The notes under the pieces: model-generated
What the model saw: only the letters and a program-made list of their open reading frames with translations
Told to the model about the DNA's origin: nothing
The model's database searches: none
Program-made: the position numbers and the translations under genes
NCBI GenBank assembly: GCA_021323635.1
Contig: JAJPKQ010000024.1
Location: 1-48,879 of the forward strand
Direction: 5' to 3'
DNA length: 48,879 bases
From: a bacterium
GTDB taxonomy: Bacteria > Actinomycetota > Thermoleophilia > Solirubrobacterales > Solirubrobacteraceae
Shown: positions 2,433-18,527 of the stretch, piece after piece
Layout: each line of letters begins with the position of its first letter
How positions within the stretch are numbered: position 1 is the first letter of the stretch

Positions 2433-3023
2433 TCAGCTCTCAACGGTGAGCCTCCCCTCCATCCAGCCCGAGGTCGACATCGCCCCGCTCATGCCTTCCT
2501 TGCCTTCGCCGCAGGGCGCATAGCAATGCCATTCGAAGGTCCCGGCCTTTTTCGGCGTGAAGCTGAAGGTGACCGTGTTCGTCGAGCCTTCCGGAGCTGC
2601 GGGAATCACTGCGTTGATGCCAAGCTCGGGGATCGTGAAGGTGTGAGCGACCTTCTTGTTTTCGACCGTCGTGACCCTCGCTCCGTTCAATGTCTCTTCG
2701 CCGCCCGCGACAGCGTCATACATCTGCATCGCGGCAGACAGCGGCGCCGTGCCGCCGTCATGGTTGACGATCGTGATCCTGACCGGCACCCCGGCATGCA
2801 CCGTGAAGTCCGCCGGGACATAGCGCGGCCATTCCGCATGCCCCGGACCGCTGGTCTGGATTTCCAGGCGCACCTGCTGCACCTGTTGCGCGCTCCTGCT
2901 TGCCGCCGCAGCGGCCTTCGGCGGACTTGAGCTGCTGCCGCAGCCGGCCACGGCGAGGGCAGCGCCGAGCGCCGCGAGCGTCGCACCGAAGCGGAGGCTG
3001 GTCTTGCGTCGGGAGATATTCAT
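2433..3023 (-). CDS. Cupredoxin-fold lipoprotein resembling the CuA domain of cytochrome oxidase subunit II
   Basis: A 196-residue predicted lipoprotein. The ATG at 3023 follows AAGGAG. A twin-Arg/Lys start, a hydrophobic segment and the lipobox AVAGC (Cys28) point to anchoring on the outer face of the membrane. The rest is one cupredoxin domain. The segment VAHTFTIPELG (His127) and the C-terminal WHCYAPCGEGKEGM line up with the CuA region of oxidase subunit II (His-Ser-Phe-x-Ile/Val-Pro-Glu, then C-x3-C-x3-H-x2-M). Here Cys167, Cys171 and Met178 are in register but Lys175 occupies the position of the second CuA His. A normal binuclear CuA site is therefore unlikely; a mononuclear copper site or a structural role is possible. 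It is divergent from the beta-helix gene at 3362. No oxidase genes are visible nearby. Confidence 0.8.
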   Translation of the reverse strand: MNISRRKTSLRFGATLAALGAALAVAGCGSSSSPPKAAAAASRSAQQVQQVRLEIQTSGPGHAEWPRYVPADFTVHAGVPVRITIVNHDGGTAPLSAAMQMYDAVAGGEETLNGARVTTVENKKVAHTFTIPELGINAVIPAAPEGSTNTVTFSFTPKKAGTFEWHCYAPCGEGKEGMSGAMSTSGWMEGRLTVES

Positions 3024-3361
3024 TGTCACACTCCTTGTCCTGTTCGTTCCCAGTTGACAGATGTCACTCTGCGTGCTCGCGCATTCAGCCCTTGCTGAAG
3101 CTGTCGGCCACGTCCGAGCACGCGACAATGTTCGGTGAGGCTGCTCGCGGCACGCTGCGGGTTTGCCGCAATGCCATGCCATCTGACCGCTGCGGTCATA
3201 ACCGTCGACAATGACCCTCACGCGGCCGCCGACCGGCAGCTCCCACAGCCACAGATCGCGCTAGACTGCGGTGCCTCAGATGCGAGCAGGCGCGCCCTGC
3301 ACGCTCGCAGCGCGCACCGCGCACACCGCTCGAGAGCAAGCGATTGAAGAAGGAGATCGCC
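3024..3361. other. Divergent intergenic region
   Basis: 338 bases between the cupredoxin and beta-helix genes. It carries a ribosome binding site on each side (AAGGAG at 3350-3355 for the plus gene; AAGGAG on the minus strand just before 3023). A TAGACT hexamer at 3262-3267 could be a -10 for the plus-strand gene, giving a leader of about 90 bases. No clear -35 box and no convincing small gene is seen. Confidence 0.4.
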
Positions 3362-4861
3362 ATGCGATCGATGCTGCAGCACAGCAGTGCGCCCCAAGTC
3401 CATCGCGCGCCCGGGAGGTCTTTGCACGTCAAAGGCGCCGAGCCACATCGCCGCCGGCGGCTGCTGGCCACGGTGCTGGTCGCTGCGATCGCCCTCACCG
3501 TGGCCCTCGCCGCGATCTTTGCAAGCAGCGCGCACGCTGCGGTGCCCGCTGCGGTCAACATCGTCGGCCCCGGGCACTACGCCAGGATCCAGGAAGCCGT
3601 GAACGCCTCCTCCCCGGGCGGATGGGTGCTGATCGAGCCTGGCGTCTACGACGAATCGGTGCGCGTGACCACACCGGACCTGCATATTCGCGGGATGAGC
3701 CGCAACGCGGTCATCATCGACGGCCAGGGCCTATCTGTCCCGGGCGGCCGCAATGGGATCGAAGTCTACAAGGCAGATGATGTCTGGATCGAAAACCTGA
3801 CGGTGCGAAACTTCGAACGCGAATCCCAGAACGGCGCCAACGGCAATGCGATCTGGTGGAACGGCGGGTCCGGCTCGGGCCAGATCGGCGCGCGCGGGTG
3901 GTGGGGGCGCTATCTGACCGCGTACGACACCGGCCTTGACGGCGGCTATGGGATCTTTACAAGCAACGAGACCGAAGGCTCCTTTGAAGATGTCTACGCC
4001 TCGGGCTTCAATGACTCCGGCATCTACGTCGGCGCCTGCCGCGACTGCTACGCCCGGATCGCCAACGCGATCGTCGAAGACAACGCGGTCGGCTACTCGG
4101 GCTCCAACGCGGGCGGCCACCTGATAATCGAACGATCGCTCTTCCGCCACAACTCGGCGGGCATCGTCCCCAACTCCGAAAACCCCGGCGACCCGCCGCC
4201 GCCGCAGGATGGCGCGTGCAGCTCAGGCGAAAACAGCTCGCCGACGCCGACCTTCTCGACCACCAGGATCGCCCGCTGTACGATCATCCGCTACAACGCG
4301 GTGGTCGAAAACAACAACCTCTCAACGCCCGCCAATGACTCCACGCTGAAGGCGCCTTGGGGCGTCGGAGTCGAGCTCCCCGGCACCTACGCCGATCTCA
4401 TCACGCGCAACCTGATCGCGGGCAACGCCAGCGACGGCGTGCTCGGCTTCGAGTATCCCAACCCCTTCCCGCCGACCGCCGAAACGATCTTCTTCCAGCT
4501 CGCCGGCAACCGCATCAGCGAAAACCTCTTCTTCGGCAACGGCACCGGAGGGGAGCCCTTCTCCGGCGATGTGACGCTCGCCGGCGGCCTCTTCGGCCAG
4601 CAGCTCTCCACCAACAACTGCGTCTCTTACAACCTGATGCCCGATCCCACCTTCCCCGAAGCGATCGAAGGCACCTGGGGCTGCCAGAACGAAACCACCC
4701 CCAACCCGAGCCCGGGCAACCTCGAACCGGTCGGCTATCTGCTGGCCCTCCAGGAAGCCTCCGAGAGCCGCCGATCGGTCCCACAGCCCCCGCCTCCTCC
4801 GCAGCCGACGATGCCCGATCCCTGCGCGGGCGTGCCCGCCAACCCGCTCTGCCGCCGCTAG
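3362..4861 (+). CDS. Exported right-handed parallel beta-helix protein
   Basis: About 499 residues. The ATG at 3362 follows AAGGAG at 3350-3355. An Arg-rich N-terminus (HRRRRLLATVLVAAIALTVA) with one long hydrophobic segment predicts export or membrane anchoring. The body is a pectate-lyase-like/NosD-like solenoid: it opens with YARIQEAVNASSPGGWVLIEPGVY, the usual entry coil of PbH1 proteins, and continues with short strands rich in Asn and Gly (for example NDSGIYVGA, NLIAGNASDGVLGFEY). A Pro-rich insert lies near residue 280 and a Pro-rich tail ends in CAGVPANPLCRR. These folds bind or cleave polysaccharide or serve as surface scaffolds; no catalytic set is identifiable. Glu is often encoded by GAA and Asp by GAT, less GC-biased than neighbours. 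Divergent from the cupredoxin gene. Confidence 0.8.
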   Translation: MRSMLQHSSAPQVHRAPGRSLHVKGAEPHRRRRLLATVLVAAIALTVALAAIFASSAHAAVPAAVNIVGPGHYARIQEAVNASSPGGWVLIEPGVYDESVRVTTPDLHIRGMSRNAVIIDGQGLSVPGGRNGIEVYKADDVWIENLTVRNFERESQNGANGNAIWWNGGSGSGQIGARGWWGRYLTAYDTGLDGGYGIFTSNETEGSFEDVYASGFNDSGIYVGACRDCYARIANAIVEDNAVGYSGSNAGGHLIIERSLFRHNSAGIVPNSENPGDPPPPQDGACSSGENSSPTPTFSTTRIARCTIIRYNAVVENNNLSTPANDSTLKAPWGVGVELPGTYADLITRNLIAGNASDGVLGFEYPNPFPPTAETIFFQLAGNRISENLFFGNGTGGEPFSGDVTLAGGLFGQQLSTNNCVSYNLMPDPTFPEAIEGTWGCQNETTPNPSPGNLEPVGYLLALQEASESRRSVPQPPPPPQPTMPDPCAGVPANPLCRR

Positions 4862-5220: not shown

Positions 5221-8200
5221 GTGCGCGACTTCCTCTCCGCAGCGCGCTCCCGCGTCGTCATCTACGACGGCGGCATGGGCGCCACGCTAGAGCAGCTCGA
5301 CCTCACCGCCGAGGACTACGGCGGCCTGCCCGGCCGCTGCCACGAGGCGCTCGTGCTGCACCGCCCGGATGTGATCGAGTCGGTACACCGCTCGATGCTC
5401 GAGGCGGGCGCAGAGGTGATCGAGACCGACACCTTCCAGGCCTCGCGGCTGAAGCTTGCCGAGTGGGGCCTCGCCGAGCACACCCACGAGATCAACCTGA
5501 GAGCGGCTCAGATCGCGCGCCGCGCGGCCGGTGATGACCGCTACGTCGCCGGCTCGATCGGGCCAACCGGGAACCTGCCGGCGTCCGAAGACCCCGAGCT
5601 TGGCCGCATCGGCTTCGGTGAGCTGCGCGCTGTCTTTGCCGAGCAGGCGCAGGGACTGATCGAAGGCGGCGCAGACCTGCTGATGATCGAGACCGCGCAG
5701 GACATCCTCGAGGTAAAGGCAGCGATCTTCGGCGCGCGCGACGCCTTTGCGAGGACCGGCAAGCGGCTGCCGATCCATACCTCCGTCTCGCTCCTGCCTC
5801 AGGGCGGCAAGATGCTGCTGGGCACGGACATCTCCTCCGCGCTCACCACGCTTGAGGCTTTGGGGGCGGACGTGATCGGGCTCAACTGCTCGACCGGCCC
5901 CGAGGACATGCGCGATGCGATCCGCTTTTTGGGCGAGAGCTCCCCGGTCCCGGTCGCGTGCATCCCCAACGCCGGTCTGCCGCTGCAGGGGCCAAACGGC
6001 GAGACCATCTTCCCCGAGCAGCCCGAGCCCTTCGCCGACGCGCTGGCGGAGTTCGTGGAGCGCTACGGCGTCGCGATCGTCGGCGGCTGCTGCGGCACCA
6101 CCCCGGAGCACATCGCAGCGCTCGCCGCGCGCGCCGGCGGGCGAGCGATCGCGGCGCGCCCGGCGCCGCGTCCGGCGCACCTCTCCTCGATGATCGCGGC
6201 CACCCCGCTTGCCCAGGACCCGCCGCCGACGCTGGTCGGCGAGCGCATCAACGCGCAGGGCTCCCGCCGCGCCAAGGAGCTGCTGCTCGCGGAGGACTAC
6301 GACGGCCTCGCTCAGATCGCCGAGGAGCAGGTCGCCGCGGGGGCGCACGTGCTTGACATCTGCGTCGCGCTGACCGAGCGCACCGACGAGTCAGAGCAGA
6401 TGCGTGCGCTCGCCAAGAAGCTCTCGCTCAGCCAAGCGCCGCCGCTGCAGGTCGACTCCACCGAGCCGGATGTGATCCGCGCTGCGCTCGAGCAGATCCC
6501 GGGGCGGGCGATCATCAACTCCGTCAACCTCGAGGCCGGGCGCGAGAAGCTCGACCTGGTCTGCGCGCTCGCGCTCGAGCACGGTGCTGCGCTGATCGCG
6601 CTGACGATCGACGAGCAGGGCATGGCAAAGACCGCCAAGCGCAAGCTAGAGGTGGCAAAGCGAATCCATCAGATCGCCTGCGGCGAGCATGGGCTTGACC
6701 CGGAGCTCTTGATCTTCGACGCCCTCACCTTCACGCTCACGACCGGCGAAGAGCAGTGGCGGGACTCGGCGCTGCAGACGATCGCCGGGATCGAGGCGAT
6801 CAAGCGCGAGCTGCCCGCGGTGAAGACCTCGCTTGGCGTCTCCAATGTCTCCTTCGGCGTCTCCCCCGCCGCACGCGGCCTGATCAACTCGGTCTTCCTG
6901 CACCACTGCGTCGCCGCCGGCCTCGACCTTGCGATGGTCAACCCCGCCCACATCACCCCCTACGCAGAGATCGGCTCAGAGGAGCGCGAGCTTGCCGAGG
7001 ATCTTGTCCTCAACCGTCGCGAGGATGCGCTCGAGCGGCTGATCGCGCATTTTGAGGCGCGCGCCGGCGAGCCGGGCGAGGGCACAGCCGCCAAGGCCGA
7101 TCCGACCGCGGGCATGGAGCCCGAGGAGGCCCTTCACTTCCACATCCTGCGCCGGCGCAAGGAAGGCGTCGAGGAGTGGATCGACGCCAGCGTGCAGAAG
7201 ATCGGCGCCGTGCCGACGCTCAACGACGTCCTGCTGCCAGCGATGAAGGAGGTGGGCGACAAGTTCGGCGCCGGCGAGCTGATCCTTCCCTTCGTGCTGC
7301 AGTCTGCTGAAGTCATGAAGCGCGCGGTTGCGCGCCTTGAGCACTACCTCGATCGCATCGAGGGCTACACCAAGGGGACCGTCGTGCTTGCAACCGTCTT
7401 CGGCGACGTGCACGACATCGGCAAGTCGCTTGTCAACACGATCCTCACCAACAACGGCTACACCGTGATCGACCTCGGCAAGCAGGTGCCGATCCAGCAG
7501 ATCATCGAGGCCGCAAAGGAGCACGATGCAACCGCGATCGGCCTTTCAGCGCTGCTTGTCTCAACCTCCAAGCAGATGCCCGCATGCGTCGCGGAGCTGC
7601 ACAGCCAGGGTCTCCCCTATCCGGTGCTGATCGGCGGCGCGGCGATCAACCGCGCCTTCGGCTATCGCGCCCTCTACCCCAACGGCCAGGATGGCGAGGA
7701 GACCTACGCGCCGGGCGTCTTCTACTGCAAGGACGCCTTCGAGGGGCTCGCCGTGATGGACCAGCTGATCGACGAGCAGTCGCGTGCCGCGCTCACCGCC
7801 AAGCTGCGCGCAGACGCCGCCGCGCACCGCGCCAAGGGCGAGAGCGAGCGCAGCGAGGATTTCAGCGACGACTCCGTGCGCTCTGGGGCGCGCAGCGACG
7901 TGAGCGTGCCCGAGCCGCCCTTCTTCGGCGTGCGCGAGGTCGATGTAGATCTCGAGGAGGTCTACTCGCACCTTGACACCCATGTTCTCTTCAAGCTGCA
8001 CTGGGGCGGTCGCGGCGTCAAGGGCGAGGCCTGGCGCAAGCTGCTCGCAGAGGACTTCGTCCCGCGCCTGCAGCGGATGTGGCAGGAGCAGGACTACTTG
8101 CAGCCGCGCGCGCTGCTGGGCTTCTTCCCCTGCTACGCGCAGGGCAACGAGATCGTGATCCTCGACCCCGAGGACCACGCGCGCGAGCTGGAGCGCTTCA

Positions 8201-8805
8201 TCTGCCCGCGGCAGCCCGCCGGCGAGCGCCTCTGCCTGGCGGACTTCTTTCGCCCCGCGCAGGACGGTCGCCCGCCCGCAGAGCTTGACGTGGTCGCGCT
8301 GCAGGCGGTCACCGTCGGCGCGCGGGCAAGCGAGCGCATCGCCCAGCTTGAGCGCTCAGGCGAGTTCGCCGAGCAGCTCTTCGTCCACGGCCTCGCCGTC
8401 CAGAGCGCTGAGGCACTGGCGGAGTGGCTGCACTGGCGCGTGCGTCAGATGCTCTCCATCCCGGCCTCGCAGGGCAGGCGCTACTCCTGGGGCTACCCCG
8501 CGATCCCCGAGCAGAGCGAGCACAAGAAGGTCGAGCGCCTGCTCGACCTAAGTCAGATCGGCATGCGCATCACCGACGGCTACGCGCCCGAGCCCGAGCA
8601 GTCGACGCTGGCTCTGATCGCCCACCATCCGCAGGCGATCTACTTCGGCACGCGCCAGGGACGTCTGCCCAGCGGGGAGGCGCCGGATGACCTGATCAAG
8701 GGCTCCTCCCGCGACCCCTCGCTCTTTGCTCCCAACGGCAAGCCGCCGACGCTCGACGACTCTGAGCCCGACATCTCAGAGGAAGAGGACGTGCGGGCCG
8801 CGTAG
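5221..8805 (+). CDS. metH: Cobalamin-dependent methionine synthase
   Basis: Transfers the methyl group of 5-methyltetrahydrofolate to homocysteine through cob(I)alamin/methylcobalamin. At 1194 residues it has the four-module MetH architecture. Residues 1-310 are the homocysteine methyltransferase barrel, with zinc ligands Cys223 (GLNCSTG), Cys290 and Cys291 (GGCCGTTPEH). Residues about 335-610 are the pterin-binding barrel (LVGERINAQGSR). Then come the helical cap and the Rossmann cobalamin domain with the lower-ligand motif DVHDIG (His731). The last 300 residues are the S-adenosylmethionine-dependent reactivation domain (DTHVLFKLHWGGRG, then RYSWGYPAIPEQ). A Ser/Asp/Arg-rich linker (near residues 870-895) separates the last two. 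GTG at 5221 directly follows a -10 box. A stem-loop follows the stop. Monocistronic as seen. Confidence 0.97.
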   Translation: MRDFLSAARSRVVIYDGGMGATLEQLDLTAEDYGGLPGRCHEALVLHRPDVIESVHRSMLEAGAEVIETDTFQASRLKLAEWGLAEHTHEINLRAAQIARRAAGDDRYVAGSIGPTGNLPASEDPELGRIGFGELRAVFAEQAQGLIEGGADLLMIETAQDILEVKAAIFGARDAFARTGKRLPIHTSVSLLPQGGKMLLGTDISSALTTLEALGADVIGLNCSTGPEDMRDAIRFLGESSPVPVACIPNAGLPLQGPNGETIFPEQPEPFADALAEFVERYGVAIVGGCCGTTPEHIAALAARAGGRAIAARPAPRPAHLSSMIAATPLAQDPPPTLVGERINAQGSRRAKELLLAEDYDGLAQIAEEQVAAGAHVLDICVALTERTDESEQMRALAKKLSLSQAPPLQVDSTEPDVIRAALEQIPGRAIINSVNLEAGREKLDLVCALALEHGAALIALTIDEQGMAKTAKRKLEVAKRIHQIACGEHGLDPELLIFDALTFTLTTGEEQWRDSALQTIAGIEAIKRELPAVKTSLGVSNVSFGVSPAARGLINSVFLHHCVAAGLDLAMVNPAHITPYAEIGSEERELAEDLVLNRREDALERLIAHFEARAGEPGEGTAAKADPTAGMEPEEALHFHILRRRKEGVEEWIDASVQKIGAVPTLNDVLLPAMKEVGDKFGAGELILPFVLQSAEVMKRAVARLEHYLDRIEGYTKGTVVLATVFGDVHDIGKSLVNTILTNNGYTVIDLGKQVPIQQIIEAAKEHDATAIGLSALLVSTSKQMPACVAELHSQGLPYPVLIGGAAINRAFGYRALYPNGQDGEETYAPGVFYCKDAFEGLAVMDQLIDEQSRAALTAKLRADAAAHRAKGESERSEDFSDDSVRSGARSDVSVPEPPFFGVREVDVDLEEVYSHLDTHVLFKLHWGGRGVKGEAWRKLLAEDFVPRLQRMWQEQDYLQPRALLGFFPCYAQGNEIVILDPEDHARELERFICPRQPAGERLCLADFFRPAQDGRPPAELDVVALQAVTVGARASERIAQLERSGEFAEQLFVHGLAVQSAEALAEWLHWRVRQMLSIPASQGRRYSWGYPAIPEQSEHKKVERLLDLSQIGMRITDGYAPEPEQSTLALIAHHPQAIYFGTRQGRLPSGEAPDDLIKGSSRDPSLFAPNGKPPTLDDSEPDISEEEDVRAA

Positions 8806-14589: not shown

Positions 14590-14735
14590 CCTGCCGATGG
14601 TAGCGAAGATGCAATCCGAAAGCCTGATGCGCCCCGATAGCGCCCGCGCTCCCCTGCCCCCCGACGGCAATCCGTGAACATTGTGCAGCTGTGTGCAAGC
14701 GTAAATCCGTCCTCAGGCACGCTACGGTAATGCCG
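14590..14735. promoter_or_regulatory. Divergent promoter region of kinase and HD-GYP fusion gene
   Basis: 146 bases. Minus-strand TACCAT (14602-14597) and plus-strand TACGGT (14723-14728) each end exactly seven bases before an ATG (14589 and 14736). Both genes therefore look leaderless. No ribosome binding site is seen on either side. Confidence 0.5.
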
Positions 14736-17700
14736 ATGTGGCTCGCCGATGCCCCCAGATTGCGGAGGGTCGTCCTTGCCTACAGCCTCAGTGAGCTGGG
14801 CGGATGGTTTGCAATGGTCGCGCTGCCGCTCGCGATTTACAGCCACACACACAGCTCGCTCGCAGTCGGTGGCCTGCTTGCTGCCGGCTCGCTGCCCGCA
14901 GCACTCGCCCCGGCGATCGTCGCGCGCGTGGAGATGATGGAGCGCCGCGGCGGTATTGCGCTGCTCTTTCTGATCGCAGGAGTTGCGGCCGGGCTTCTGG
15001 CGCTGCTCCTATGGCACTTCTGGCTGCCGGTGATCTTTCCAGTCTTCGCGCTCCAGAATGGCGCGACCTTCGCGGGCGTTGCGATGCTACGCGCCGAGGG
15101 CGTACATCCGCACAATCCCATCGCGCCACAGCATCACGATGGCGATTTCTCACTTCATTTGGCAGCTCGTCAAGTCCCCCCGGGAGACTATCCAGACGCG
15201 ACGCCGGCCGATGAGGTAGACACCGCCACACCGCATCAAGAGACCATACACAGAGCCAACGCAGCCTTTAATCTCGCGATGTCGCTGGCGATGGTAATCG
15301 GGCCTGCAACAGCTGGCCTCGCTGTTACCGCCCTCCATCCTCCGCTCGCCATGCTTATCGCAGCCGCCGCACTCGCCGCAGCTGCCGCTCCAATTCTAAG
15401 CCTTGATCTCTATCGCATCCGCGATACGCAGACAACTGTCCGCGCGCTTCTAGCACAAGCGGCCAACCACCTGCGCAGCAGCCCACACGTCGGGCCGCTA
15501 CTGCGAGCCGAGGCACTAGCACTTCTCTTCTTCACGGCCGTCGTTCCCCTTGACGTCGCCTATTCCAAATCCACGCTCCGTGCTGGCGCCGCCGGCTATG
15601 CCGCATTGATAGGGGTCTGGGGTGCTGGAATGATCGCAGGCAGCATAACCTTCGCACGATATCGTCGTCCCCCCGCGCGAGCTCGCTCTCGACTCCGCCC
15701 ACCTCCGTCTCTCAGCCTTTTCCTCTCTGTCGGCACTGCAGCAGTTGCGCTCGCATACATCGGATTCTTCGCTGCACCGGCTCTGCCCGATGCCCTGATT
15801 GCTGCCTTTGCAGGAGGCGCTGGCAATGGGATTCAGTGGGCCGCATTCCTCGGCATCGTTCAAGTCCTGACTCCCAGGACGCTGCTCGCCCGAACAATGG
15901 CTGCAACTGAAGCGTTGCGTGCTACGACCCCATTTCTTGGAGTGCTTTTTGGGGGAGTTCTTGCTACCGTGTACTCAACGCGCGTTGCCTTCCTCATCGC
16001 CGGTGCCGGCACAACTGGTGCACTCGCATTCCTCGTACGCACTGTTCTCAAGCCCCTGATGAGCGACGCTCCTTCTGATCCAACGCTCGCTCCCGCTCGA
16101 ACTGCTCGCCCCGCAACTCCAACAGAACAGGTTCAACAGCGCGTACAACCAAAACTCCCCATCTCTCCGCGCTCACTGCCACTTACCCTGATTCGCCTCA
16201 TACGCAGTAGGCACCTCTACTATGCCGTTAGTCTCGCTCTTCTTCTAGGAGCAATAATCGGTGCGATCATCACCGCGCGCGCAACTGAATGGGAACGCCT
16301 CCCACTCCTCGCCATTTTGACGATGTTGCTTCTGACCGGCGAGCTGATCCAAAGCATCATACAATCCAAGGCATACTCTGCGGGCTTTCTTGCCATCGCC
16401 TTCGCCGCGTGCCTACTAGGCCCGGCGCCAGCAGTCGCATTCGCTCTACTCGCTGCTATTCCTGCGACTCGTGAAAGAAGGCGTGCCCTGCGCTACTGGC
16501 TAGCAAATCTGAGCAGCGCTGCCATTGCGGCCTTCGCCGCTGCCAGTCTACTCCGGCTCGTGATCGTCCATGTGTACCACACGCCCGTCGACCGATTGCT
16601 TCCATCGATCAGCTTCGCCCCAGCTATCTTCGCAGTCCCATTTATTTTTGATACCCTCAACACTATCCTGATCTCCTGGTCTGGGACCGCGTTTTGGCAG
16701 ACTCCGATGCGAACGCAGCTGCGGACCCTCCTGTTGCCAACGTTACCCGTCCAAGCTGCGCTCGGGCTAATGGCTGCGATTGTCGTCATTGGATACGCTC
16801 GCATCGGACTTCCATTCTGGATACTCGCTTTTCCCGCTCTAATTGCCTTTCAACACCTGGCCGTCCAATTGGTACGCTCCGGTTCGCATCTCGATACTCT
16901 TCAGAGAGCTACCCCCGCCGACAGCTCTCGGAGCAAGATGCCCACATCTGCCGCGGCTCATGAGTCCGGTAGCCATGCTTTTACCTCGTCGCCACTGCCG
17001 ACGTCCAATGGCTCTGACCGCCAACGCAGCTCGTTTCCCCCTCGCAAGCGACTTGGCATGTACATGTTCTATTCGTGCACGAGCATTCTGGCCGGTGGCT
17101 CGCTTACGCTAGCAGCTATCACTACGCACAGCTACGAATGGACGCCCCTTGCGCTCTTCGCGTTGCTAGCTGGACTTGCCTTTTTTGGTGAGCAGCTCCA
17201 GATAACCATACACGGACAACCCCTCGCGGCCTCCTTCGTCGCCTACACGCTAGCCATGGTTCTACTCGGACCAGCGCCAGCAGTCGCAATCGGCGTGGCA
17301 ACAATGGTGTACACCTCCGCGAGGCGTCGTCTAGCGCCGCGCTTCTGGCTCGCCAACATCGCCATTCACTCCACCTACCTGTACGCTGGCGCTGCCCTGG
17401 CCCAGTCGCTAGCGGGCAATGTGCATTCCCAACATGCTGCTCATGCTGACCGAACCCTAGCGTTCGCCGAGATTGTCTTCCTGGTCTTCATGGTCAGCAT
17501 GCTTTTGAATTTTGTTCTTATTTCAATTGCTGCCAGAATACTTTGGCGCCGTCGGTTCGCTGACCAATTTCGCGAGCTCTTCTTGCCCGTTTTGCCAGCT
17601 CAGCTAGCGCTTGGCGTCCTGACAACCCTTGCCGCCATCGCCTACATGAACTTCGGCGTTTCGATTTTGCTAGGCGGCATTTTGCTGCTCGCACTGTTCC

Positions 17701-18527
17701 AATACCTCATGACTCGATTGGTCCGCTCCGAGGATCGACTGGCGCAGCTGGTTCAGGAGGCTCTACATCGCGCAACGATGGAGATCGGTGCTCTGTCTTT
17801 TACGATGCGCAGTCTCAATGCCCGCTTGAGCGACTCAGGCCGACACGCGGCGGCAGTTGCACTGTATGCGGAAGAGTTGCTTCGTCATCTCGATCGTCCC
17901 GAGTTCGAGCAGCACGTAGCCCATGCAGCAGGACTTTTTCACGACATAGGAATGACCGCAGTCCCAGATCATATATTCGAGTCGGACAAGGGTCTCGATG
18001 TATCCGACTGGGATGCGATCAGGCGCCATCCGATCGACGGGTCACACCTGATATCGCAGTTCCCAGACTATCGTGCAGCCGCCGATGCCATTATGTCGCA
18101 TCATGAGCGTTGGGACGGCACTGGCTATCCGGACGGCTTGATCGGTGGAGAGATTCCATTCCTGGCTCGCGTACTAGCAATATGTGAGGCGTACGATGTC
18201 ATGACCGCTGCCTCTTCATACGCTTGCATTGGCGATAGTAGTCGTGCTTTAGAAGAGATCCGAGCCAACTCCGGCTCACAGTTCGATCCTGAGCTTGCGG
18301 AAGCGTTCATCGCGCTGCGCATATCGGCAGATGATACGGTAATAGTCAACGCAAGCCTTGAGTCGGAGCTGGACAAGGAGAGAAGGATCCTGATCGGCCA
18401 CGCCAAGCCGTCGCCCAGTCACGAGCCGCCCAAATCAGCAGAGCGCACTGTTCGGAAAACAGTGCATATATGGAATACGGCCAAGCGACTCGGAACAAGC
18501 CAGCGCGGATCGCGGGTTGGCGCCTAG
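14736..18527 (+). CDS. Giant membrane protein: MFS-like domain, two tandem homologous membrane modules, HD-GYP domain
   Basis: About 1263 residues. Residues 1-440 resemble an MFS transporter (SELGGWFAMVALPLAIY at the start), with an unusual hydrophilic His/Asp/Pro-rich insert near residues 125-175. Residues about 488-723 and 775-1005 are two copies of one multi-pass module: each has LLGPAPAVA, an Arg-rich cytosolic loop, then RYWLAN or RFWLAN, and ends LVRSG/E-xx-L. Residues about 1010-1210 are an HD-GYP phosphodiesterase-like domain with His1069-Asp1070, His1122-His1123 and GYP at 1130-1132. Two canonical positions differ: HDIGK is HDIGM and the late metal-ligand Asp is Glu1151 (CEAYD). HD-GYP domains usually hydrolyse c-di-GMP. 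G+C is visibly lower than neighbours. Leaderless start at 14736; ATG at 14730 is possible. Ligand unknown. Confidence 0.85.
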   Translation: MWLADAPRLRRVVLAYSLSELGGWFAMVALPLAIYSHTHSSLAVGGLLAAGSLPAALAPAIVARVEMMERRGGIALLFLIAGVAAGLLALLLWHFWLPVIFPVFALQNGATFAGVAMLRAEGVHPHNPIAPQHHDGDFSLHLAARQVPPGDYPDATPADEVDTATPHQETIHRANAAFNLAMSLAMVIGPATAGLAVTALHPPLAMLIAAAALAAAAAPILSLDLYRIRDTQTTVRALLAQAANHLRSSPHVGPLLRAEALALLFFTAVVPLDVAYSKSTLRAGAAGYAALIGVWGAGMIAGSITFARYRRPPARARSRLRPPPSLSLFLSVGTAAVALAYIGFFAAPALPDALIAAFAGGAGNGIQWAAFLGIVQVLTPRTLLARTMAATEALRATTPFLGVLFGGVLATVYSTRVAFLIAGAGTTGALAFLVRTVLKPLMSDAPSDPTLAPARTARPATPTEQVQQRVQPKLPISPRSLPLTLIRLIRSRHLYYAVSLALLLGAIIGAIITARATEWERLPLLAILTMLLLTGELIQSIIQSKAYSAGFLAIAFAACLLGPAPAVAFALLAAIPATRERRRALRYWLANLSSAAIAAFAAASLLRLVIVHVYHTPVDRLLPSISFAPAIFAVPFIFDTLNTILISWSGTAFWQTPMRTQLRTLLLPTLPVQAALGLMAAIVVIGYARIGLPFWILAFPALIAFQHLAVQLVRSGSHLDTLQRATPADSSRSKMPTSAAAHESGSHAFTSSPLPTSNGSDRQRSSFPPRKRLGMYMFYSCTSILAGGSLTLAAITTHSYEWTPLALFALLAGLAFFGEQLQITIHGQPLAASFVAYTLAMVLLGPAPAVAIGVATMVYTSARRRLAPRFWLANIAIHSTYLYAGAALAQSLAGNVHSQHAAHADRTLAFAEIVFLVFMVSMLLNFVLISIAARILWRRRFADQFRELFLPVLPAQLALGVLTTLAAIAYMNFGVSILLGGILLLALFQYLMTRLVRSEDRLAQLVQEALHRATMEIGALSFTMRSLNARLSDSGRHAAAVALYAEELLRHLDRPEFEQHVAHAAGLFHDIGMTAVPDHIFESDKGLDVSDWDAIRRHPIDGSHLISQFPDYRAAADAIMSHHERWDGTGYPDGLIGGEIPFLARVLAICEAYDVMTAASSYACIGDSSRALEEIRANSGSQFDPELAEAFIALRISADDTVIVNASLESELDKERRILIGHAKPSPSHEPPKSAERTVRKTVHIWNTAKRLGTSQRGSRVGA

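Follow-up and report, generated by a model that had tools for sequence, protein, structure and literature searches.

Here, we describe P0001, a putative copper lipoprotein encoded on the minus strand of contig JAJPKQ010000024.1 (assembly GCA_021323635.1) from a bacterium of the family Solirubrobacteraceae, together with its relatives; the 48,879 nucleotides analyzed are referred to below as the window. The signature of this protein family is a His, a C-x3-C pair, and an M-x5-M pair, a CuA-like combination from which one His has gone and to which an invariant Met has been added. We consider it an even call whether P0001 adopts a cupredoxin fold, is exported and anchored by a lipid, and carries electrons on copper bound at a CuA-like or hybrid site. 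The narrower proposal that the family bears a natural two-copper CuA-type centre with His/Cys/Cys/Met/Met ligands, serving CuA oxidases or 4Fe-4S/NrfD modules in Actinomycetota, Dormibacterota, Chloroflexota, and some archaea, is offered tentatively.

Contigs in GTDB contain 319 stretches that encode relatives of P0001, and all locus counts given here refer to the best 80 of these. From the 80 loci and the window, 101 family open reading frames (ORFs) were collected, including the window protein, and 100 of them span the site region; a fragment without the site (L038_17) was excluded from the family alignment (A3) and from the tree. A3 consists of 91 rows, namely the window protein and 90 of the 92 sequences retained from 99 by identity filtering (L074 and L105 were left out). 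All 100 rows have His127, Cys167, Met182, Met188, and Gly190; Trp165 is kept in 98 and Cys171 in 99, the sole exception for the latter being a Ser in L038, where Cys167 is retained. No columns other than 127, 167, 171, 182, and 188 have His, Cys, or Met in half or more of the family rows; the A3 counts for these five are 91, 91, 90, 91, and 91 of 91, respectively. The pattern C-x3-C-xN-M-x5-M-x-G is found in 89 of the 91 A3 rows (N = 10 or 11 in 79 and N = 4 in 8). This set is conserved far beyond chance, and Lys175 is not part of it. No second conserved His was found, any His between Cys171 and Met188 being present in 6 of the 100 rows. His166, or another His of P0001, was rejected as a hidden second ligand: His166 occurs in 6 of 101 rows, and 127 is the sole column with His in half of the rows or more.

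The CuA motif is H-xn-C-x3-C-x3-H-x2-M (PMC6189053). The family profile was aligned to a profile of 23 COX2 domains (A4), comprising 22 of the 24 motif-bearing COX2 proteins encoded next to family genes (L105 and L113 were left out) and the COX2 of the window genome. In this profile-profile alignment (96.9% probability, E = 1.6e-10), His127, Cys167, Cys171, and Met188 coincide with the first His, the two Cys, and the Met of CuA, the second CuA His aligns with the variable Ser185, and residues 175–184 form an insertion. The family thus shares the first His, C-x3-C, and the final Met, as well as the cupredoxin fold, with the CuA domains of COX2 and nitrous oxide reductase (N2OR), but departs from the full motif in lacking the second His and differs further by about ten extra loop residues and the extra invariant Met182. 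Neither is the family itself oxidase subunit II, canonical COX2 being encoded beside many members. In structural alignments, residue 196 of the P0001 model pairs with residue 168 of the Thermus thermophilus CuA domain (2cua) and residue 580 of N2OR (1fwx). If the last strand is ungapped, Met188 would fall on residues 160 and 572, the respective CuA Met ligands.

A preliminary description of the gene had presented the product as a stand-alone lipoprotein with His127, Cys167, Cys171, and Met178 in CuA register and Lys175 at the position of the second ligand His. All five residues are present in the translation as numbered, and the N-terminus is indeed lipoprotein-like, with the sequence LAVAGC28, which we take to be a lipobox. 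The alignment to oxidase subunit II, which the same description had proposed as a check, upholds the register for His127, Cys167, and Cys171 but not for the other two residues, as Ser185 occupies the place assigned to Lys175 and Met188 that assigned to Met178. The resemblance arises because, counted from Cys171, C-x3-C-x3-K-x2-M has the spacing of C-x3-C-x3-H-x2-M; Lys175 is not at the ligand position, since the profile alignment places it in the insertion. Among the 101 rows, Lys occurs at position 175 in 2 (2 of 91 in A3) and Met at position 178 in 26 (25 of 91 in A3), and rows with a short loop are gapped at both. Variable and located within the insertion, Lys175 and Met178 were rejected as site residues, and P0001 shows that spacing which matches to the letter can assign a Lys to a ligand position of which the family makes no use. 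The broader suggestion of an altered site on a CuA-related fold is supported by the missing CuA His, the lack of any second conserved His, the predicted cupredoxin fold, and the COX2 profile match. Conservation, alignment, and gene context support such an altered CuA-like site: the second His is missing, and the reshaped loop carries an additional, invariant Met.

Gene context was assessed by tblastn on the same strand within 6 kb of each family gene, with 12 query members per gene group drawn from the same loci. COX1 or COX2 adjoins the family gene in 48 of the 80 loci and a 4Fe-4S or NrfD gene in 19; one locus (L053) has both, and a respiratory context of either kind is present in 66. One COX-type member (L076) belongs to a named isolate, Intrasporangium chromatireducens Q5-1. 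Pfam names assigned to one representative per neighbor group are Fer4 domains, NrfD, COX1, COX2, and SCO1-SenC. The epithet "stand-alone" thus suits P0001 and its two nearest kin, but not the family, which occupies two respiratory neighborhoods. The canonical CuA motif is intact in 24 of 26 neighboring COX2 proteins, the remaining two being cut off; because these proteins keep their own motif, the family adds to CuA and does not replace it.

On a tree of the "quick" kind, without bootstrap, contexts are clustered: they change 14 times, compared with 47.5 on average after shuffling. The context labels on this tree are ORF-based (40 COX-type, 18 NrfD-type, and 23 neither, of 80), and these counts are too low, since the choice of the longest ORF took antisense ORFs in several loci, leaving the "none" group (24 rows) too large. 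P0001 groups with L037 and L042, both from the set with neither context (Shimodaira-Hasegawa-like approximate likelihood ratio test [SH-aLRT] 90), and is nested in mostly NrfD-associated clades (SH-aLRT 82, 92, and 88) but belongs to no starred set. P0001 therefore looks like a detached member of an NrfD-associated clade. L037 and L042 are apparently the same as contigs G021:C458 and G019:C199, respectively, and one copy of each is counted in the 101 rows. The NrfD matches in G019 and G021 were not hit by the family's own NrfD neighbors (tblastn, E ≤ 1e-3), and G021's 4Fe-4S match shares about 30% identity. The window genome encodes a canonical COX2 (CATLCGRDHARM), COX1 in two contig-end pieces, one SCO match, and two cytochrome b matches.

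In the proposed carrier, copper would be held by His127, Cys167, Cys171, Met182, and Met188, which, judging from the CuA alignment, probably converge on one point; by analogy with CuA, the backbone carbonyl between the two Cys may be a further ligand. The second CuA His would have been lost, with the extra Met on the lengthened loop as its substitute, so that His and two Met would complete a CuA-like set by a single His-to-Met change. Because the two Cys stand at CuA spacing, a bridged site is favored, and the centre would most likely hold two copper ions with Cys bridges. NrfD-like subunits interact with quinones and carry no redox cofactors (PMC8076601). Since members adjoin either 4Fe-4S/NrfD genes or CuA oxidase genes, the simplest role common to both settings is that of a copper protein, anchored outside the membrane, that transfers one electron at a time: family members may shuttle electrons singly, with a 4Fe-4S/NrfD pair on the quinol side or some other donor at one end and CuA oxidases at the other. 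The gene of P0001 is detached from such respiratory partners in its own organism. Neither this ligand set nor a cupredoxin–4Fe-4S–NrfD cluster was found described in the literature searched, which leaves out preprints and most subscription journals and makes for weak evidence of novelty. A widespread family in which the other CuA anchors are kept, one His is absent, and an additional Met is invariant would be a natural experiment on the tuning of CuA by its ligands, and oxidases and NrfD-type modules of poorly studied lineages would gain a candidate for their electron carrier.

The AlphaFold model computed from A3 has a cupredoxin fold with a mean predicted local distance difference test score (pLDDT) of 84.6; by ten-residue block, the score is 93–98 over residues 71–170 and 84 over 181–190. 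Met182 lies within a short helix (180–183) and Met188 just N-terminal of the last strand (189–195). The VIA comparison gave Z scores of 11.6 for nitrosocyanin, 11.2 for a Bacillus anthracis Cupredoxin_1 protein, 10.1 for FtrB, 9.4 for a cytochrome bo3 subunit, 9.4 for the CopA domain, 9.3 for CupA, 9.3 for N2OR (1fwx), and 8.8 for the T. thermophilus CuA domain (2cua), gaps of less than 1 being counted as ties. Nitrosocyanin, a red copper protein, is the best of these (root-mean-square deviation 2.2 over 97 residues), but the NCBIfam nitrosocyanin model (TIGR03096) scores P0001 at 17.7 bits, below its cut-off of 142.85, and the nitrosocyanin ligands, Glu, Cys, His, and His, differ from the family set. 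The top Foldseek rows are AcoP and rusticyanin (E = 2.5e-5 and 3.7e-5), with low query-length template modeling scores of 0.33–0.39, and a structure of His143Met rusticyanin is among the matches. A profile search of the PDB gave weak matches alike to blue-copper nitrite reductases, auracyanin, N2OR, and COX2.

Several observations weigh against an electron carrier with a CuA-like site. The ligand loop at residues 171–180 has a pLDDT of 72, and the predicted fold gives no preference for CuA over blue copper, Z differences below 1 being ties. Respiratory genes were not found among the listed neighbors of P0001 in the window (glutamine synthetase, a beta-helix-like ORF, and methionine synthase), and the window genome, which is 97.5% complete, yielded no NrfD match. 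Neither a COX nor a 4Fe-4S/NrfD context is present in 14 of the 80 loci. Finally, SCO genes occur in many COX-type clusters, which also fits a chaperone.

A Cu(I) carrier or chaperone that, in the manner of CupA, uses the two Cys and two Met to bind Cu(I), either to hand it on to CuA or to confer copper tolerance, and that carries no electrons is on balance unlikely, yet it is the main rival, and a serious one because of the CupA precedent and the SCO neighbors. CupA of Streptococcus pneumoniae has a two-copper cluster with bis-thiolate and Met-rich sites, two Cys and Met surrounding the copper (PMC7558416). The family has two Cys and two Met that are invariant or nearly so, its fold matches CupA and the CopA domain (Z 9.3–9.4), and one relative (L081) is followed by a CopC-CopD fusion gene. 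Compared at the level of motif and gene context, the family differs from CupA and CopA in its invariant His at the CuA place, its C-x3-C spacing, and its genomic surroundings. A chaperone for CuA would also leave unexplained the 19 loci in which the family gene, in some cases in two to four tandem copies, adjoins a 4Fe-4S/NrfD pair rather than a copper enzyme.

Less probable still, and in our view rather improbable, is a one-copper carrier of type 1-like character, with His127, one Cys, and Met182 or Met188 as ligands and the second Cys in a second-sphere or structural role. Type 1 copper is bound by two His, one Cys, and one Met, one of the His being in the C-terminal loop (PMC4059628), a ligand set that the family does not have, as no loop His is conserved. 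The His143Met rusticyanin structure implies that a cupredoxin can tolerate a Met where the loop His would be, the fold and profile matches of P0001 to blue copper and to CuA proteins are about equal, and the L038 row keeps Cys167 with Ser at 171; the second Cys is nevertheless present in 99 of 100 rows, at exactly the CuA spacing. AcoP and rusticyanin of Acidithiobacillus ferrooxidans are cupredoxins serving cytochrome oxidase (PMC4059628), and rusticyanin holds its single copper by His85, Cys138, His143, and Met148 (PMC10654088). For all their likeness to the P0001 model, these one-copper proteins have a ligand-loop His and no C-x3-C, the latter being present in the family. PmoD, likewise a cupredoxin, has a naturally occurring CuA-type centre whose ligand set is non-canonical (PMC6189053), but this centre lies at a dimer interface and is built from another part of the fold, whereas the family residues are at the classical CuA place. 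His143Met rusticyanin, PmoD, and CupA are precedents for the altered site of P0001. Copper ligation by Lys175 and Met178 in CuA register is barely credible, the spacing being literally there but both positions being variable, in the insertion, and gapped in short-loop rows, against 100 of 100 for Met182 and Met188.

Table 1. Features of the P0001 gene and protein, with window coordinates
Feature	Position	Strand	Basis
P0001, cupredoxin lipoprotein coding sequence, 196 residues	2433..3023	-	Translation; Pfam Cupredoxin_1; relatives at 48–49% identity
AAGGAG, Shine-Dalgarno-like, 7 nt upstream of ATG	3031..3036	-	Read from sequence
Cys28, lipobox LAVAGC; putative lipid anchor	2940..2942	-	Read from sequence; lipobox rule
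His127, equivalent of first CuA His	2643..2645	-	100/100 rows; aligned to COX2 His
Cys167, first Cys of C-x3-C	2523..2525	-	100/100 rows; aligned to CuA Cys
Cys171, second Cys of C-x3-C	2511..2513	-	99/100 rows, one Ser; aligned to CuA Cys
Lys175, variable insertion, not a conserved site residue	2499..2501	-	Lys in 2/101 and 2/91; insertion in profile alignment
Met178, not conserved	2490..2492	-	Met in 26/101 and 25/91
Met182, invariant, lengthened loop; candidate substitute for second His	2478..2480	-	100/100; model helix 180–183
Ser185, where second CuA His falls; variable column	2469..2471	-	Profile alignment; conservation
Met188, CuA Met equivalent, directly before last strand	2460..2462	-	100/100; profile alignment; strand 189–195

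Translation places the start codon (ATG) at 3023-3021 and the stop codon at 2435-2433. P0001 scores above the cut-off of Pfam Cupredoxin_1 (PF13473; 34.7 bits, cut-off 27) and below those of Pfam COX2 (12.5 bits, cut-off 22) and NCBIfam CoxB (29.9 bits, cut-off 147.7); the NCBIfam CoxB, clade III NosZ, and nitrosocyanin models match its C-terminal part, all far under their cut-offs. The N-terminus (window 3023-2980, minus strand) contains SRRKTS, and the relative L008/L042 has SRRTTS, which presumably hints at a twin-arginine signal and possible export in the folded state. The neighboring genes are all on the plus strand: glutamine synthetase (ORF to 2279), the beta-helix-like ORF (3344-4861; right-handed beta-helix match below threshold at 21.1 versus 25.9 bits), and B12-dependent methionine synthase (5221-8805).

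The 80 loci are mostly from Actinomycetota, with others from Dormibacterota, Chloroflexota, Bacillota, Acidobacteriota, Pseudomonadota metagenome-assembled genomes (MAGs), Thermoplasmata, and one Thaumarchaeota MAG. A 14-row family profile has matches at E ≤ 1e-5 in 72 of 399 genomes from the class (35 of 215 among the better assemblies). An earlier search gave matches in 28 of 101 genomes at E ≤ 0.001, several of them to ordinary COX2 (L030, L031, and L033) or confined to the N-terminus (L027, L029, and L032), and no relatives were found among the 181 stretches of a single-sequence scan of genome contigs. Twelve of the 80 loci hold two to four family copies, and tandem arrays of this size precede 4Fe-4S and NrfD genes (L036–L056, for example L044 and L049). 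The archaeal members (L060, L063, L079, L088, L073, and L082; Thermoplasmata and Thaumarchaeota) have neither known context, and Pfam searches of ten neighbors from seven "neither" loci, archaeal ones included, detected no oxidase. A second family member is present in the window genome (G000) on contig C3 near 95983. It is of the short-loop kind (L146:7465-8175), and it is followed by a 400-residue protein related to one from NrfD-type loci (L056_5, E = 2.5e-51); Pfam names neither of these two proteins.

None of the 14 listed variants of the 34 neighboring COX1 rows (for example, L077:6841-8778) has a Lys two residues past PTG, which we take to be the K-channel position, and these proteins carry a Glu a few residues before the PTG motif; the COX1 of the window genome reads PTGVK. 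This suggests a changed K-channel. Elsewhere in the window, a 1278-residue ORF (14691-18527, plus strand) matches HD_5 and HD above the cut-offs at its C-terminal end and MFS models, below their cut-offs, earlier in the sequence, and was labeled a long membrane-HD protein.
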